A stretch of DNA of 22,053 bases, taken from a virus. Position numbers and translations under genes: made by a program. Each line of letters begins with the position of its first letter. Within the stretch, counting starts at the first letter, position 1. The notes under the pieces are model-generated. The model saw only the letters and a program-made list of their open reading frames with translations, made no database searches and had not been told where the DNA came from. The stretch lies in IMG/VR virus record IMGVR_UViG_3300025132_000351, positions 1-22,053 of that record; one strand, written 5' to 3'. Of the stretch, positions 4,224 to 21,091 are shown piece by piece.

Positions 4224-6914
4224 CTAACTTGATTCAAGCGCGGCGACTTTAGTTTCTAATATCTCTATCTTATTTATTGCTTCTTGTAGTGCGGCTGTTA
4301 GTAAAGGAACTATTTTTGATTGATCGATACATTGATATAAAGGAGCGTTTGCCTCTTTTACATCACCGACTTCTTTGCCTTCAGGAATATCATCTGATTC
4401 GACATAAGTTAAATCATGTGTCTCGTCTTTTGTTCCAGTGATTGCTTCAGGAACAGCCGTTACTTCATGGGCAAAAAAACCATCTACTGTTACATCAGGA
4501 TCGGATTTAAAATTAAATCGATACGGCTTGAGAGTTTTTAATCTTGTTATTCCATCAGAAATTGCGACTGCATTTTCTTTTAATCGATAATCGGAGCTAG
4601 TGTGATAGCCAGTTGAAGTCCCACTTGTACCAATATAACCGACTCTTCCATTCGGGTTGAAGAAACTAACAGCCGTTTGTCCTCCTGTACCATTTGCCCG
4701 AACAGCTAAAGAAGCAACTCCAGAACTTACAATTTGAACCGCAGCATAACTAACATTATCAAAGGCATAACCGTCGTTATAACCACCGAAACAAACTTTG
4801 CCGCCATCTTGACTTCCTATTTTAAAATAGCCCGTTCCTCGGTGGAGGATAACCGATGTTCCATTGGCACCATCATTTCCTCTAAGAAGTCTTAATCCAT
4901 AATCGGCGTAAGTTGTATCTCCTATTAAATCGATATATGCATTTTGATTTGAATTAGCAGTACTACCAATCTCCATGTGACAATCGCCACCTTGATTCTT
5001 TATGAAGAAAGTTGAGCCATTTAAGGTGCTTGTTATATAACCTGCACCGTTTGTTAATTGATTATTATTAGTAACATTTGTTGCCCCTGACGCGATTCCA
5101 TCAAGTTTGTTTTTGAGAGTCGTAGTGAAATTGTTATCTGTCTGAGATGCGACTGCAAAATCTAATGTTCCATCCGAATCTTGATATGTAACTGTAATAC
5201 CTGTTTCGGTATTGCCTGTGACCATACCTCCGACATAATCTTCAACCTGTTCTTCGGTCAAAGTTGCTGTTATATATCCAGCACCGTTTGTTAGTTGATT
5301 ATTATTGGTGACATTTGTCGCGCTAGAGGCAATACCATCTAATTTTGACTTAAGAGTATTTGTAAAATTATTCTGAGTTAATCCTCCATCACCTACTGAT
5401 AATTTGTTAGTTAAATCCGTATAAGAAATATCAATATTAGCCGATCCATTGAAAGAAGTTCCTGCAATAGTTCTTGATGTTGAAAGAACGTCAGCTTGAG
5501 CAGCAGTGCCCGTTGTGTTTTGACTTCCTGTTGCATTAACACCTGGAAGATTAATATTCGCAGAACCGTCAAAACTGACTCCTCCTATTGTTCTGGCAGT
5601 AGCAAGTGTTGTCGCTGTTGCTGCATTTCCCGAACAAGCCGCAGAAGTTCCAGAACTTGTTATATAACCCGCGCCATTTGTTAGCTGATTGTTATTAGTA
5701 ACATTTGTCGCGCTTGATGCTATGCCGTCTAATTTATTTTTTAAAGTCGTTGTAAAATTATTATCGGTTTGAGAGGCAACAGCAAAGTCTAAAGTGCCGT
5801 CTGAATCTTGATAAGTAACAGTAATTCCAGTCTCGGTGTTACCTGTGACCATTCCACCGACATAATCTTCAACTTGTTCCTCTGTTAATGTCGCGGTTAT
5901 ATATCCAGCACCGTTTGTTAATTGATTATTATTAGTTACATTTGTCGCGCTTGATGCAATACCATCTAACTTCGATTTAAGAGTATTTGTGAAATTGTTC
6001 TGAGTTAATCCTCCATCACCGACTGATAATTTATTTGTTAAATCAGCATAAGAAATATTAACATTAGCAGAGCCGTCAAAGCTGGCTCCAGCTATTGTCC
6101 GAGCCGTTGCTAATGTTGAGGCTGTAGAAGCCGCAATACCAAGTGCATCTATATCTGATTTCGTTTGGTCGGCAGTTGCTCCACTCTCAATTCCATCTAG
6201 TTTGGAACCATCACTTGCAATGTCTCTACCATCAACCGTTCCTGATACTCCTATATTCCCTGTTACATCAAGACCAGCACCTACGTCTAGGTTGCCAGGT
6301 ATAGTTGCTTGTCCACTTTCTTCAAGCTTGAATAACTCAGTTCCAGTTCCACTTGCTCCGTTATAAAGAAATTTGAAAGTTCTATTAGTATCGTCATTAT
6401 CAGTATCAATATTAAACGTCATATTTTCGTATGCGTTTAAATGACCTGACGATGTATTTGCTGTTCCTAGCCTTAAGACACCTCCTGTTATATCTGCCTC
6501 TCCACTAATAGTGGCACCAACTGAACTTGTTGCGAATTTTTTTGAATTATTAAAATAGAGGTCTACTGAGCTACTAACATTAGCGTCTAGAAAAGTATGT
6601 CCAGCAGCAGTATTTGTTAGTTTTACTCTTTGCGAAGAAAGATGCAAAGTACCAGTATTATTCTTGAGCGCACTGTGGGTTGAATCATGAAATATTTCTA
6701 GGTCATGTCCTGTCCCGAAACGAACTTTTACATCATCATTAAAATCTATACCTGTCGAACCACCAATAGTTCCTGCTCCTCCAATCTCCTTAACCGTCCC
6801 AGAATCATTGATATAAAGTTTCTTGGCAGAGGTATCAATCGCAACCTCACCACTGGAAATATCACTCGTTGATGGAGTGCTAGTTCCTCTTTTTAACTTA
6901 ATTGTGTTAGTCAT
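4224..6914 (-). CDS. Long tail fibre with C-terminal peptidase S74 intramolecular chaperone
   Basis: This 896-residue fibre has three parts. The N-terminus (MTNTIKLKRGTSTPS, then GEVAIDTSAKKLYINDSG) is the attachment module common to phage fibres and is shared in style with the fibre at 6944-8578. The shaft (about 210-630) is made of fibre repeats (ARTIAGASFDGSAN, KLDGIASSATNVTNNNQ) including one long near-perfect duplication. Residues 630-765 form a probable head domain. The end (about 770-896) is the endosialidase-type chaperone: SSDYRLKEN with the Ser774/Lys779 pair, RLKTLKPYRFN, DGFFAHEV and a terminal coiled coil. By analogy it should trimerise the fibre and cleave itself before Ser774. 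TAGGAGGT precedes the ATG. Its likely role is binding the host surface. Confidence 0.92.
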   Translation of the reverse strand: MTNTIKLKRGTSTPSTSDISSGEVAIDTSAKKLYINDSGTVKEIGGAGTIGGSTGIDFNDDVKVRFGTGHDLEIFHDSTHSALKNNTGTLHLSSQRVKLTNTAAGHTFLDANVSSSVDLYFNNSKKFATSSVGATISGEADITGGVLRLGTANTSSGHLNAYENMTFNIDTDNDDTNRTFKFLYNGASGTGTELFKLEESGQATIPGNLDVGAGLDVTGNIGVSGTVDGRDIASDGSKLDGIESGATADQTKSDIDALGIAASTASTLATARTIAGASFDGSANVNISYADLTNKLSVGDGGLTQNNFTNTLKSKLDGIASSATNVTNNNQLTNGAGYITATLTEEQVEDYVGGMVTGNTETGITVTYQDSDGTLDFAVASQTDNNFTTTLKNKLDGIASSATNVTNNNQLTNGAGYITSSGTSAACSGNAATATTLATARTIGGVSFDGSANINLPGVNATGSQNTTGTAAQADVLSTSRTIAGTSFNGSANIDISYTDLTNKLSVGDGGLTQNNFTNTLKSKLDGIASSATNVTNNNQLTNGAGYITATLTEEQVEDYVGGMVTGNTETGITVTYQDSDGTLDFAVASQTDNNFTTTLKNKLDGIASGATNVTNNNQLTNGAGYITSTLNGSTFFIKNQGGDCHMEIGSTANSNQNAYIDLIGDTTYADYGLRLLRGNDGANGTSVILHRGTGYFKIGSQDGGKVCFGGYNDGYAFDNVSYAAVQIVSSGVASLAVRANGTGGQTAVSFFNPNGRVGYIGTSGTSTGYHTSSDYRLKENAVAISDGITRLKTLKPYRFNFKSDPDVTVDGFFAHEVTAVPEAITGTKDETHDLTYVESDDIPEGKEVGDVKEANAPLYQCIDQSKIVPLLTAALQEAINKIEILETKVAALESS
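5028..5474 (-). repeat. Fibre shaft repeat, second copy (residues 481-629)
   Basis: This is copy B of a 149-residue duplicated block in the fibre gene, offset 209 codons (627 bases) from copy A at 5655-6101. Residues 500-629 differ from 291-420 at only one position (Gly610 for Ser401); the flank 481-499 differs at five. Each copy itself holds two shorter units sharing the KLDGIAS-ATNVTNNNQ and LTNGAGYIT motifs. Confidence 0.9.
5655..6101 (-). repeat. Fibre shaft repeat, first copy (residues 272-420)
   Basis: This is copy A of the duplicated block. Aligning 5041-5417 with 5668-6044 by hand I count about 60 base differences in 377, yet the encoded residues are almost all identical. The duplication is therefore old at the DNA level and strongly constrained at the protein level, or each copy was taken from a different phage. 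Confidence 0.9.
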
Positions 6915-16010: not shown

Positions 16011-16375
16011 TAGGGTTCAAAAACCTCAGAGAATGTTGCTTGAATTGTAGCTCGACTTAAGTAAGGAATTGATTTTGACCAATTAGGACAAATCCATTTA
16101 GAAGAAGAACCCGAAGGAGGTGTCCAAGTAAAAGCTTCCTGTCCTTTTCTTGCTTCTAAAAAACTTTCAATAGCATCAGCATCTGTTTCAGAAATATTGC
16201 TCCAATTTAGATTCCATACTTTTGCGTCTTGATTTTCGCCAAACACAAGCCTTTTGGTGTAACCGTCACCAAATTGGACAGTCTGAACGTTTGGACGGCT
16301 TGTTTTTTTTGCTCCATAACTAGGATGTGGAGCTGAAGGATTGGAACTAGGGATGGGAAATGCTGGAGTTGTCAT
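16010..16375 (-). CDS. M: Minor tail protein M
   Basis: This 121-residue protein matches the lambda M family (109 residues) along its length: RPNVQTVQFGDGYTKRLVFG, NLNWSNIS, ADAIESFLEARKGQEAFTW, and WICPNWSKS. The first ~25 residues (Pro/Ser-rich, TTPAFPIPSSNPSAPHPSYG) are a modest extension. M joins the tube-proximal ring to the tip after H, by analogy with lambda. It shares one-base TAATG overlaps with the tape measure upstream and L downstream. Confidence 0.9.
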   Translation of the reverse strand: MTTPAFPIPSSNPSAPHPSYGAKKTSRPNVQTVQFGDGYTKRLVFGENQDAKVWNLNWSNISETDADAIESFLEARKGQEAFTWTPPSGSSSKWICPNWSKSIPYLSRATIQATFSEVFEP

Positions 16376-19300
16376 TATGAAGATAAAAGTCCCCCAGGAC
16401 GTTTTTGACGAATTAATTCAGACTGAACTGCCACTGCTAGCATAGTTCCAAGTTGTTCAGCTTGCCCTCCATCTCCTTCTACTGACGAACCAGAAGCATC
16501 TACATTAACCACGATGTTTGCACTAGAACTTCCTAATTCGTGATTTGGAACGATATTACCGCTAGAACCTGGAATAAATAATTCTGGTCCTTTTTCTCCT
16601 ACAATATAAGATTTATTACCTGAAACTGGTCCACCAGCAGCCATTCCTCCACCAAAGAATTTTTGCCAACTTTTGCTATTAGGGAACATACTTCCCAAAC
16701 CAGTCGAAAGACCATAGTTAAGAAGCATTTTTGAAAGACTTCTAAAGACGCTACCTGCTACTTCTCCTAAAGTTTTAGTGCCATCTATAGCAGCATTTAT
16801 TCCTTCGACCAATCCATTTTTAATCGTTGATCCTATCTGATTATAAAGAGCGTTTAGCTGTTGCTCTTGTTGTATGATCTCGTCATTTGCATCTCTAAGG
16901 TCAAATAGTGTATTTAATCTATCTCTAACTTGCTTAAGATTATCTCCTTCCAGACCTGCTGTCTTCTCTGCTAGTACAGCTTTTCTTTCTCTAATTTCAT
17001 AACTTCCATGTTCCATATTCATTAATTCTTTTTGACCAGCTATTTCTCTATCTAAATCAGCTAATGTCTTCGCATGATCTTGTGCTGATTTGTTTTTATC
17101 TTGGAATTCTTTATATTTATCGTCTGCTTCATAGTAGGCCGTAATTGCTTTTGTCATTGATTCAAGTTGTTCTTTGTATTCTGTTGAACCAACTTTTGCT
17201 TTAGATTGCTTCATAACTTGATTTATTTCATTGTTAATCTTTGCTTGACGTTCACCTATATTTGGATCCATCTTTTCCTTCAAAAACTTAGTCTTAGATT
17301 GATAACCAGCAATAGTACTTGCACCGGGACCTAATAAATTTTGCGTTCTTTCTGATGCTAATTCTTGAATCATTGTATCGTCTATTTCATTATCAAGTCC
17401 TGAAATCATTTCTCTTTGACGGTCAGACAGTTTCCAGAAATTATCTGTTCCAGGGAAAATACTACCTCCAATAAAACCTGAAACATCTTTTACTTTTTTC
17501 TTCCAAGGAGTACCACCTACGTCATTAAGTGCTGCTTGTCTTTCTGTATATAAATCTACCAGTTTATTTTCAGAATCAGTCCGCTGACTAAAGTTTGGTT
17601 TGTTTTTAATAATGTCCTGAACTCTTCTTTCAAACATTGCATATCTATTTGCCCTTGATATTGCATTTGTCAAAGTAAGTAAAATTCCACTACTATTTAT
17701 CAACTCAGCAACAGAAGCCTTCATTAAGGTGAAAGCTTTAGCCATTTCATTACCAAAATCTTGAGCATCATTACCAAACTGCTTCAAACTTTTTACTCCT
17801 TGTTGACCTATTAATTGAGTTAATTTTTTAGTAGCTTCTGCCATTGCAACAGCTTCGCCTTCTATAGCCTTCAACATTTCTATATGGCGTCCGTAAGCAG
17901 TATTCGTTACTCCTAAAGAATCAACAACAGCGTCTACGTTTGGATTTATATCATTAAATGCCTTTCCAAGCTCAGCAGTTTTAGCAACAAAAGCATCTAT
18001 CTGTTGACCTATTGCACTAAAGAATATTTGCGCTCCAAAGCCTTGAGACTTAGTTGCATATTGTAAACCTGCACCAAGTAATCCTCCTCCTACAGAACCA
18101 GCTCCTCCTCCAAACAACAGAGGGAAACCAGCCCCTAACATTAAGTTTTCTCCAAGTCTTTGATTTGCTAGTTGTCTTGCTTGCTTTCTCTTTTGTACTT
18201 TTTCAATTCTCTGGTCTATATCCAACATTCGTCCATTTTGTTTAACTAATCTCTTATTTATTTGTTCATTCTTTTTCTTTACTTTGGTCTTTCTTTCTTC
18301 TAGTTCGGCTCCTTTCTTCTGCATTTCTAATGATTTTTTTGCAGCCTCTTGTACTTCCGTAGATTCAATACCACTAAGCTCACGTGTTGCTTTGGATGCT
18401 GCCTGAATCTCTTTTGTTATCTTCTGTCTCATTTGATAGACTTCACGCAGCCTTCTTGCATAACTCCTGTCTTCAGGATCAGTAGCAGCTAAATTTGTTT
18501 CTTTAACAGCAAGTCTTGCTTCTAAAGATTGTCTACGACTAGGTTTTCTTCTGGTTATCAATTCATCTGCTGCTGCTCCGTAACGATCTGGTCCATGACC
18601 AGGAGCGAAATAAGACTTTGCATCTTCAGCAGACATGCCTCTACCTCCCATCCACTCAGGCATCATCATCATTGCTGCGGAAGCCATCATCGGTAGCTCA
18701 CGCACCATTTTGCCCATTGCAGAAAAAGCGTTTCTATAATTTCTCTCTACACTCCAAATAATATTTGCTGCGGCATCTTCAAACGCCATAAATCCTTTAA
18801 TTGCCTTACCTACCCAATCAGCAGCACTTAAAACTTTCTGTAATCCAATAGCAGCACCTTTTACTCCAGCCACTCCTAAAATCATATTTTGGAGATGAGA
18901 AGATGCTATCTTTTCTGTCTTTCCCCAAGCAGGATTTAAAGCGTTAACTGCTCGTGCAAGCTCATGCACTAACTTTGTTATACCAAGTAGTGCTGCAGTC
19001 TGACCAACCCATCCTAGTGGACCTTTTCCTATCAAAGTCTTACCTGCTGCTTTAGCAACTTTCCATGCAAGTTTTAGGTTTTTTATGTTTAACTCATTTT
19101 GTTTTTTTGCTGCTTTTGCTAAATCGTTCTCTAGTTTTAATCTGTTTTTTCCAAATCGCAGCATTTCTTTCTGTACTTTCTTTTCTTCATCATTTGCTAT
19201 CTTTCTATCCTTAGCAGCTTCTCTTTCTAGAGCATTTCCGTTATCTAAAATATTATTTACCTTTTGAATAGCTTCTTCTACTTTTTTATACTCTTTCCCT

Positions 19301-20070
19301 TGTAACTCGACTAAAGATAACGCTTTTTGAAGCTCGGCCTTATAAACATTTAATGATGCAATATTTTTAGCAATTCCCTTCTCTGTACCTATTGTGTCCG
19401 TCATCGCTGCCAAACTCAATGCGTTTGAATAACCTTGACCTGTTTGAGTTTTGTGTTGCCCAGAATAAAATCTACTTTGAACTTTTATCCTTGCTAATTG
19501 TTTAAACGCTAAGTCTTGTTCTGCTTTGGCAGCAGCTTTTATAGATAGTGAATATAAAGTCTGTTCGCTAGTAGCAACTTGTGTCTGTCTTGATATTTCC
19601 TGTAACGCTTTAGCCTGACGCATTAAACCTGCTTCACTTTTATTAAATACACCTCCAGCTTCAGCAAGCGTTTTAACAGTTCCTTTAAGAGTATCTAACT
19701 GTTTTATCCATTTGGCATCCGTTACTCCAGACCCAGAAAGTAACGGTCCTTCCTTTGCTATCTGTTTATTAAGATTCTTTATCTTAGTTAAAGTTACGAC
19801 ACCTTTATTTAATGCTTTTTGATTTAAAGGACTTTTCTTTGAGCCTTTATTTATGTTGTCTAGACTTTTAGAAAGTTTTACAAATTCCGTCCCTACTATT
19901 TTTAAAGATTTAGAAATAGCTGCGAAACTTTTATTTATATTGTCAGCTTTTTTATTTACATCAGTAAGACCAACACCTAAATCTTTAATCGCCTTTCTTA
20001 CCTGCCCATCCTTGGCAGTAAACTCAACAGGAACGTTATAACCTCCAGCCACTCCTTTCGTACCAAACAA
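16375..20070 (-). CDS. H: Tail tape measure protein (lambda H type)
   Basis: This 1231-residue protein is the longest in the window. Residues 30-340 are Lys/Ala-rich coiled coil, 340-460 are hydrophobic helices, then comes a Met-rich stretch (461-480), more coiled coil (505-640), a glycine-rich membrane-like segment (643-672, LMLGAGFPLLFGGGAGSVGG) and helices to 1100. The C-terminus (MAAGGPVSGNKSYIVGEKGP, NIVPNHELG, then AVQSELIRQKRPGG) is the lambda-H-family end. The start is a TTG; a GTG at codon 7 is an alternative. At roughly 1.5 A per residue the tail would be about 185 nm, less if processed. It sets tail length and probably enters the host membrane during injection. Confidence 0.93.
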   Translation of the reverse strand: MFGTKGVAGGYNVPVEFTAKDGQVRKAIKDLGVGLTDVNKKADNINKSFAAISKSLKIVGTEFVKLSKSLDNINKGSKKSPLNQKALNKGVVTLTKIKNLNKQIAKEGPLLSGSGVTDAKWIKQLDTLKGTVKTLAEAGGVFNKSEAGLMRQAKALQEISRQTQVATSEQTLYSLSIKAAAKAEQDLAFKQLARIKVQSRFYSGQHKTQTGQGYSNALSLAAMTDTIGTEKGIAKNIASLNVYKAELQKALSLVELQGKEYKKVEEAIQKVNNILDNGNALEREAAKDRKIANDEEKKVQKEMLRFGKNRLKLENDLAKAAKKQNELNIKNLKLAWKVAKAAGKTLIGKGPLGWVGQTAALLGITKLVHELARAVNALNPAWGKTEKIASSHLQNMILGVAGVKGAAIGLQKVLSAADWVGKAIKGFMAFEDAAANIIWSVERNYRNAFSAMGKMVRELPMMASAAMMMMPEWMGGRGMSAEDAKSYFAPGHGPDRYGAAADELITRRKPSRRQSLEARLAVKETNLAATDPEDRSYARRLREVYQMRQKITKEIQAASKATRELSGIESTEVQEAAKKSLEMQKKGAELEERKTKVKKKNEQINKRLVKQNGRMLDIDQRIEKVQKRKQARQLANQRLGENLMLGAGFPLLFGGGAGSVGGGLLGAGLQYATKSQGFGAQIFFSAIGQQIDAFVAKTAELGKAFNDINPNVDAVVDSLGVTNTAYGRHIEMLKAIEGEAVAMAEATKKLTQLIGQQGVKSLKQFGNDAQDFGNEMAKAFTLMKASVAELINSSGILLTLTNAISRANRYAMFERRVQDIIKNKPNFSQRTDSENKLVDLYTERQAALNDVGGTPWKKKVKDVSGFIGGSIFPGTDNFWKLSDRQREMISGLDNEIDDTMIQELASERTQNLLGPGASTIAGYQSKTKFLKEKMDPNIGERQAKINNEINQVMKQSKAKVGSTEYKEQLESMTKAITAYYEADDKYKEFQDKNKSAQDHAKTLADLDREIAGQKELMNMEHGSYEIRERKAVLAEKTAGLEGDNLKQVRDRLNTLFDLRDANDEIIQQEQQLNALYNQIGSTIKNGLVEGINAAIDGTKTLGEVAGSVFRSLSKMLLNYGLSTGLGSMFPNSKSWQKFFGGGMAAGGPVSGNKSYIVGEKGPELFIPGSSGNIVPNHELGSSSANIVVNVDASGSSVEGDGGQAEQLGTMLAVAVQSELIRQKRPGGLLSS

Positions 20071-20081
20071 TATCTTCTATC

Positions 20082-20273
20082 TTACCCTTTTTGAGATCTA
20101 ATAGCACGACCTGTTTGCCTTGCTTCTTGACTTCTTTCCATTTCATCATTCTGGATCTTAAAAAAAGCAGCCCAACCTATCATTTCCTCTCTTGTCAAAT
20201 CCCTTGTCAGTTCTTTAACAGTTTTACCTAATTCTTTCGCTAACGAGAATAAAAAAATCCACTCCTTATTCGC
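20082..20273 (-). CDS. T: T domain of tail assembly chaperone, expressed by frameshift from G
   Basis: This 63-codon open frame follows G and lies in the +1 frame relative to it. The product reads ANKEWIFLFSLAKELGKTVK, continues with ELTRDLTREEMIGWAAFFKI and ends SQKG. That is the recognisable T signature: W-x6-A-x-x-LGKT, then E-x-x-x-W-x-A-F/Y. It has no ATG, GTG or TTG until 20189, so it cannot start independently with its conserved part intact. The G-T fusion would be 179 residues. In lambda, G-T recruits the tape measure and tube subunits and is absent from the virion. It ends 11 bases before the tape measure start. Confidence 0.85.
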   Translation of the reverse strand, partial: ANKEWIFLFSLAKELGKTVKELTRDLTREEMIGWAAFFKIQNDEMERSQEARQTGRAIRSQKG

Positions 20274-20312
20274 TTTTCAAATCAGCTTCAGCTTCGTCTA
20301 CCTCCTTATTCG
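20262..20312 (-). repeat. 11-base direct repeat around the G stop codon
   Basis: CGAATAAGGAG occurs at 20302-20312 and again at 20262-20272 on the minus strand, 40 bases apart. In the first copy G reads it as Asn-Lys-Glu; in the second the T frame reads Asn-Lys-Glu while G terminates on the TAA inside it. Forty is one more than a multiple of three, so loss of one unit would fuse G to T in frame. Confidence 0.8.
20266..20280 (-). promoter_or_regulatory. Candidate +1 programmed frameshift site joining G and T
   Basis: On the minus strand the codons are TTG AAA AGC GAA TAA. The T frame is closed by a TGA just upstream (20277-20279), so the shift must occur within these few codons. A tRNA-Lys on AAA can slip one base forward onto the identical AAA of the AAAA run, after which GCG AAT AAG continues in the T frame. 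The slow TAA close by could help. An AAGGAGG sequence (20301-20307) lies about 23 bases upstream, probably too far to act as a prfB-type stimulator. The same frame could in principle be reached by a -2 shift, but re-pairing would be poor. Confidence 0.65.
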
Positions 20313-20622
20313 ATCCAGATTCAAGCATTGCTAATTGTATCTCTTGTAAAACAGCAGCCTCTACTTCTCTACGAAGAGTTGCTCTATCTGCATCAGCAAA
20401 AAGTCTTTTACCTTTCTCATCTAATGCTTTTTCAATCATCAAAGATAAAGCAAAATTATTTGCATCTTCTGTATTGCCAGATTTCTTTTGAATAGATTCT
20501 CTTTCAGCAATTGTTAATGGATGCCAAAAAATAGTAAGAACAACTTCACCATCTTTCTTTACATCATGTTGATATAATTGACTGACTCCAAATTTATTGG
20601 ATAAGAGTTCAACGGCTCTCAT
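20266..20622 (-). CDS. G: Tail assembly chaperone G
   Basis: This 118-residue acidic protein starts MRAVELLSNKFGVSQLYQHD, with AAGGAA seven bases upstream. The middle (EVVLTIFWHPLTIAERESIQ, then NNFALSLMIEKALDEKGKRL) has the look of phage tail assembly chaperones placed just before the tape measure: a beta start, then helices. The Asp/Glu-rich end (EVDEAEADLKSE) is where ribosomes are expected to shift to make G-T. In lambda, G and G-T are made at a fixed ratio. There is no tail tube gene between it and the terminator candidate. Confidence 0.85.
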   Translation of the reverse strand: MRAVELLSNKFGVSQLYQHDVKKDGEVVLTIFWHPLTIAERESIQKKSGNTEDANNFALSLMIEKALDEKGKRLFADADRATLRREVEAAVLQEIQLAMLESGSNKEVDEAEADLKSE

Positions 20623-20659
20623 AAAAAATTCCTTACTTTAATAGGATAATAATACTATA

Positions 20660-21091
20660 TTAGGCGATTGCTGAGAACTGACAAGTGATGACACCCAGGC
20701 AATGTGACTCGTCCTGATCATCAACTACAATCCCAGGACCAGATATTTCACTTACTCTTGGTGAGCAAGAATAAGTATCAACATAATCAGAAGCATTAAT
20801 AGACGTTAAACCTGTAATAACTGACTCACTCACAGCAGCTAAAACAGAAGTGCCTTTATTCTTTGGAACGTAAACTCTGCATTGAACGAATCCTGCGTAA
20901 AAAGCACTTGCAGCACCTTGAGCTTGCTGAGTAGCTTGCCCGAAATTAACTGTCATTACTATATATTTCACCGTTTTTCCTGGTCTTGTATAACCAACAT
21001 TGTCATAAACCATCTTTACAGTTGGATCGACATCCTTTACTGCATCTGTAACTGCTTTTTCAAAAGCTGCCCTTGTTTTTACAAGTGTCAT
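20660..21091 (-). CDS. Tail terminator candidate (DUF4128-like)
   Basis: This 143-residue protein starts MTLVKTRAAFEKAVTDAVKD, has PTVKMVYDNVGYTRPG, then a strand-rich half (YIVMTVNFGQATQ, AGFVQCRVYVPKNKGT) and ends HCLGVITCQFSAIA. The arrangement of an N-terminal helix, a YDN-x-x-x-x-P segment and beta strands around QCRVYVPKNKG fits phage tail terminators of the DUF4128/lambda U group. It lies after the gpZ-like gene, overlapping it by four bases, exactly where U lies in lambda. It would cap the tail tube. The family name is from memory and not searched. Confidence 0.72.
   Translation of the reverse strand: MTLVKTRAAFEKAVTDAVKDVDPTVKMVYDNVGYTRPGKTVKYIVMTVNFGQATQQAQGAASAFYAGFVQCRVYVPKNKGTSVLAAVSESVITGLTSINASDYVDTYSCSPRVSEISGPGIVVDDQDESHCLGVITCQFSAIA

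Follow-up and report, generated by a model that had tools for sequence, protein, structure and literature searches.

The window analyzed here is the whole 22,053-nt stretch of a viral sequence (IMG/VR record IMGVR_UViG_3300025132_000351, positions 1 to 22,053). On its minus strand it carries a tail assembly chaperone gene, referred to as G, of 118 aa in the zero frame (20266..20622; ATG at 20622, TAA at 20268-20266). G overlaps a second open frame, T, which lies +1 relative to G, has no start codon, and comprises 64 codons (20085..20276, minus strand; stop at 20084-20082). The T frame begins KANKEWIFLFSLAKELGKTV..., out of frame with G, and the overlap sits just upstream of the gene for the tape measure protein (16375..20070, minus strand), which matches phrog_10574, phrog_1538, and phrog_5062 (tail length tape measure). 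A tape measure gene directly downstream is the expected neighbor of a G/T pair. On the other side of G is a terminator-like ORF (20660-21091, minus strand), and no recognizable major tail protein gene was found between the two (window 20622-21091). Cyanophage MED4-184, unlike the window, has a major tail protein gene at this place; that of the window may lie elsewhere. No tRNA or Rfam match was detected in the window.

The overlap of G and T consists of four codons: TTG (20280-20278), AAA (20277-20275), AGC (20274-20272), and GAA (20271-20269). Any shift from G into T is limited upstream by a TGA in the T frame (20277..20279, minus strand), directly 5' of the slip codon, and downstream by the TAA of G (20266..20268, minus strand). 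The predicted slip site, AAA_AGC (20272..20277, minus strand), would place the Lys codon AAA in the P site and the Ser codon AGC in the A site, and contains an AAAA run at 20277-20274 of the minus strand. Farther upstream is a putative Shine-Dalgarno-like (SD-like) element, AAGGAGGT (20300..20307, minus strand), with 23 nt between its AGGAGG and the slip codon. A preliminary description, made from the letters of the window, had placed T in the +1 frame of G and found it without a usable start, and both statements hold to the base. The coordinates it gave for the TGA and the G stop, which confine the shift to TTG AAA AGC GAA, also proved correct. Before the T core, recognizable by the signature W-x6-A-x-x-LGKT, the window has no ATG, GTG, or TTG in the T frame.

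Comparison with PHROG matched G to phrog_20784 (5e-23) and to phrog_344, "tail assembly chaperone" (2e-7), and matched T to phrog_337, "tail protein" (3e-7). Pfam gave nothing above cut-off for either protein. An AlphaFold2 model of G (pLDDT 81) has as its top PDB match the HK97 tail assembly chaperone gp13 (2OB9; probability 0.99, E 0.009), and as its second YqbN (3KLU). The predicted match to the HK97 chaperone fold is of moderate strength and is consistent with the sequence evidence, and BFVD matches of G include annotated tail assembly chaperones. One BFVD entry, D6PII1, is a 179-residue viral protein, the length predicted for a G-T fusion, and is 69% identical over the G part; it may represent an annotated shift or an in-frame version.

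Selection on T was assessed in 93 members of the window's clade. The ratio pN/pS is 0.43 in the T frame, versus 1.05 and 1.53 in the other two frames, and falls at 0.26 over T codons 4 to 20; T is under purifying selection. As far as selection shows, T appears to be expressed as protein, though not from a start of its own. It might instead be made alone, by re-initiation after G at a nonstandard or weak start. A possible start (ATG, TTG, or GTG) does precede the core in the T frame of about half of the +1 members, and in the window an AAGGAG overlaps the G stop. A conserved start for T, which would have spoken against a frameshift, was looked for and did not emerge: in 87 of the 177 +1 members tested, none of the codons ATG, GTG, and TTG precedes the T core, the positions of the remaining candidates are not conserved, and an SD-like 4-mer accompanies only 15 of 159 candidate starts. 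Independent initiation would also leave unexplained both the invariant AAA_AGC and the -1 heptamers of related phages described below, and we regard it as highly unlikely. From their homology, their overlap, and the selected but startless T, G and T, as judged from sequence and structure prediction, together form a tail assembly chaperone of the lambda type.

Relatives were identified by scans of IMG/VR and of isolate phages, giving 267 distinct G-T regions. Frame assignment required that T be recognized by tblastn, and four loci without a T match were excluded (one truncated T and three contig ends). T is in the +1 frame of G in 220 regions and in the -1 frame in 47. All 220 distinct +1 regions (the window and 219 relatives) have an in-frame AAA inside the overlap, and the next codon is AGC in 214 and AGT in 6; the frame offset and the AAAA run, which the preliminary description had proposed following through related phages, are thus both kept. 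These phages come from sea and fresh water and range from AT-rich marine to GC-balanced freshwater genomes. A second +1 clade, at 52% GC, has AAA kept in every member. The +1 members are metagenomic contigs save one, AG-345-A17, whose source plate was sorted as extracellular particles. A search of 84,980 bacterial and archaeal genomes with short peptide patterns, whose reach is limited to close relatives, returned no close relative of G. In one contig (L150, IMGVR_UViG_3300030118_000855) G and AAA AGC are intact and T stops after ~20 codons, its core having been deleted or misassembled.

In principle, the frame offset could stem from an indel introduced by assembly or sequencing, or T could be a decayed gene. 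Homopolymer runs are error-prone, the T of L150 is truncated, and D6PII1 may be an in-frame version. This explanation is refuted by the occurrence of the same offset in 220 distinct sequences from many metagenomes and by the purifying selection on T; regions in which one base more or fewer restores the frame were looked for, and T is in frame with G in 0 of 267. We consider an artifact or decay negligible as an explanation.

Among the -1 regions, 46 of 47 match the slip-heptamer pattern X XXY YYZ. The heptamer is A AAA AAC in 30, A AAA AAA in 7, and C CCA AAA in 6, with C CCA AAG, A AAA AAG, and G GGA AAG found once each. The heptamer of cyanophage S-2L is counted in the 46 but was not used as evidence, because its T frame runs open far upstream and the match may be chance. 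The sole -1 region without a heptamer is that of cyanophage MED4-184 (L295), where the overlap before 1340 reads GCA AAG GAA TCC TAA, an unusual -1 site. With AAA_AGY in all +1 regions and heptamers in 46 of 47 -1 regions, the kind of slip site tracks the direction of the shift.

We consider it very likely, from the sequence evidence, that the G-T fusion is produced by a programmed +1 frameshift in which tRNA-Lys slips from AAA to AAA before the rare codon AGC. The majority of ribosomes would terminate at the G stop and release the 118-aa G. A minority would shift +1 at TTG AAA AGC, while peptidyl-tRNA-Lys occupies AAA and the A site holds the still undecoded AGC, a rare Ser codon. The tRNA-Lys would re-pair with AAA at 20276-20274, making GCG (20273-20271) the next codon, and T would then be translated. 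Given the 63 T codons that follow the slip codon, the predicted product is a fusion of 116 + 63 = 179 residues with the junction ...ADLK-ANKEW.... The fusion would serve as a chaperone in tail assembly, bridging the tape measure and the major tail protein.

For the P-site step, the codon that would slip re-pairs perfectly in the +1 frame (AAA_A) in 220 of 220 regions. In the tightest overlaps the candidate P-site codons are TTG, AAA, and AGC, and AAA alone re-pairs one base forward; forward movement of tRNA-Lys on AAAA had been singled out at the outset as the only good slip, and TTG and AGC indeed cannot re-pair in +1. A T-frame stop lies directly 5' of the slip in 216 of the 220 +1 regions, so that the frame opens one base past the first slip base. 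A -2 shift leads to the same frame as a +1 shift, and phage Mu uses the former for this gene pair (PMC5009743); T could be entered in that way, with one extra residue at the junction. On a -2 shift, AAA would come to lie on TGA or TAA in almost every member, and AGC on AAA, so neither re-pairs, and the re-pairing two bases back that defines the Mu-type class is not found here. The +1 re-pairing, by comparison, is perfect, and the AAAA run is invariant while the base preceding it varies among relatives. We judge a -2 shift very unlikely.

Alternatively, transcriptional slippage on the A run could make a second mRNA. The site is A-rich, and the protein products would be identical. The A run here is four to five bases long, however, and the poly-A/T runs implicated in such slippage exceed seven (PMC3711429). 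Slippage of the polymerase would also leave the constraint on AGC unexplained, and its probability is vanishingly small.

A four-base A run alone is a modest slip site. In the window's clade (64 thinned sequences), AGC ranks first and AAA second of 79 G columns for codon identity above expectation, and across all +1 members AGC is again first and AAA second of 39 codon columns for codon-level constraint. The slip site is, on this sequence comparison, conserved as codons, beyond the amino acids they encode, although the site columns are not fully independent across related phages. Elsewhere in G, about a third of Lys codons are AAG. In the window's genes AGC accounts for 40 of 489 Ser codons (~8%; 7 per 1000 codons), and is rare by the phage's own codon usage. 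Of the 5713 codon pairs in the window's genes, 9 are AAA AGY, yet the pair is present in every one of the 220 distinct +1 overlaps, which is more than chance. Because its C also determines the first Ala codon of T, AGC may owe part of its conservation to T.

A role for the A-site codon, with slow decoding of AGC driving the shift, is suggested by this constraint together with the known +1 sites Ty1, Ty3, and EST3. In +1 shifts a slowly decoded A-site codon is known to matter; that of EST3 and Ty3 is AGU (PMC5009743). The yeast sites Ty3 (GCG_AGU_U) and EST3 (CUU_AGU_U) resemble that proposed for the window in having an AGY codon in the A site, which in the window may be slow to decode, an event in the P site, and a +1 direction; they differ in being eukaryotic, in their P-site codons, and in lacking AAA re-pairing. 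It could be asked whether the shift proceeds without P-site re-pairing, by Ty3-like occlusion of the A of AGC, or by slippage at AGC beside the stop. That the constraint on AGC equals that on AAA, and that Ty3 works on GCG_AGU_U (PMC5009743), would fit. Nevertheless, AAA is invariant in 220 of 220 regions and re-pairs perfectly, AGC cannot re-pair with GCN, and the second +1 clade, referred to as L198, has no stop beside AGC. These alternatives to tRNA-Lys slippage thus seem most improbable. The preliminary description had further pointed to a nearby stop. The G stop is indeed close in the window, and follows AAA by 1 to 3 codons throughout its clade, but it is not essential: in the L198 clade it lies 4 to 8 codons from AAA, and a stop in the A site is therefore not part of the signal.

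Beyond what had been read from the letters, the comparisons brought out the constraint on AGC, as strong as that on AAA, the close relatives with -1 heptamers, and the SD-like element upstream. AAGGAGGT is exact and at a fixed position in 100 of 114 members of the window's clade, and GGAGG or GAGGT occurs nearby in 108 of 114. Its codons GAG and AAG rank third and fourth for codon constraint, against codon bias. In other +1 clades we found only loose GAGG matches, within an acidic stretch. In SD-stimulated shifts the spacing is 3 nt for +1 and 9-14 nt for -1 (PMC5009743, a review by Atkins and colleagues), and AAGGAGGT fits neither rule because its spacer is 23 nt. In 27 of 45 -1 relatives, GAGG lies 11 nt before the heptamer, near the spacing of the classic -1 SD stimulator. 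A function of AAGGAGGT as an initiation site was ruled out, as no start codon follows it at a workable distance. Consensus folding, in two clades, of five stretches within the range -60 to +90 likewise yielded no RNA structure better than shuffles. We suggest that AAGGAGGT probably tunes the efficiency of the shift in the window's clade.

In a G tree built without the slip-site columns, well-supported branches force at least three changes of shift direction, and in a second, wider G tree the hypothesis of just one +1 clade fails (AU p = 0.007). Most clearly, the L198 clade (+1, ATG AAA AGC) is nested with full support among -1 phages like KBS-S-2A, and the G proteins of L198 and KBS-S-2A are 66% identical. 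These phylogenies suggest that the shift direction changed at least three times within the tail chaperone family; the trees are limited by small numbers of columns (113 to 115) and by long branches, are unrooted, and do not separate gain of a direction from its loss. A fourth change, in a G tree with Pelagibacter phages, arises through a very long branch and was not counted.

Programmed shifts in the G/T pair are classical. The G/GT genes of lambda and gp13/14 of HK97 share with this locus the order terminator-G-T-tape measure, a short overlap, a startless T, and, as proposed here, a frameshift into T. Lambda and HK97 shift -1 on a heptamer, whereas the window would shift +1 on AAA_AGC and so falls outside the -1 heptamer class. 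Cyanophage KBS-S-2A and Synechococcus phage S-H1 have homologous G and T in the same order, but their T lies in frame -1, and the stop is preceded by A AAA AAC. The bacterial prfB (RF2) shift is similar to the proposed one in its +1 direction, its slippery P-site codon, and, for the window's clade, an upstream SD-like sequence. It requires that the A site hold a stop codon and that the spacer be 3 nt, whereas here the A-site codon is AGC or AGT in all 220 regions and the spacer is 23 nt, which sets these sites apart from the prfB type.

Shifts of +1 in tail chaperones are already reported (PMC5009743, PMC8211752, PMC10885494). One has been described in this kind of gene in the haloarchaeal myovirus HSTV-2, and the PRFect training set, from SEA-PHAGES genomes, contains 350 annotated forward sites, mostly in tail assembly chaperone genes. 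These sites are comparable to that of the window in the kind of gene and the +1 direction. AAA_AGC as a +1 site was not found in the open-access literature. As far as that literature shows, the AAA_AGC site, its breadth, its repeated interchange with -1 sites, and an SD-like element at such a distance are new. More generally, AAA_AGC could represent a bacterial +1 signal in its own right, with more than one origin in a single tail chaperone family and with interconversion between it and -1 heptamers; in the marine clade it would be aided at 23 nt by an SD-like element. We offer this tentatively and consider it possible but doubtful.

Overall, these loci constitute a large natural data set on phages that appear to change frameshift direction without losing the product. 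Between homologous G and T, some lineages have a -1 heptamer and their sister lineages +1 AAA_AGC, with direction and site agreeing in nearly all cases. We know of no general motif for bacterial +1 sites, which are hard to recognize for that reason; the AAA_AGC motif, kept over 220 distinct sequences, could be used by annotation tools. AAGGAGGT, in turn, is an SD-like element conserved at the codon level at a spacing beyond what present models explain.

Elsewhere in the window, a tail fiber-like ORF (4224-6914, minus strand) contains a long internal duplication, in which SYADLTNKLSVGDGG...NNQLTNGAGYIT occurs twice. By eye, the C-terminus of the same ORF (SSDYRLKENAV...) resembles a self-cleaving chaperone of the S74 type.
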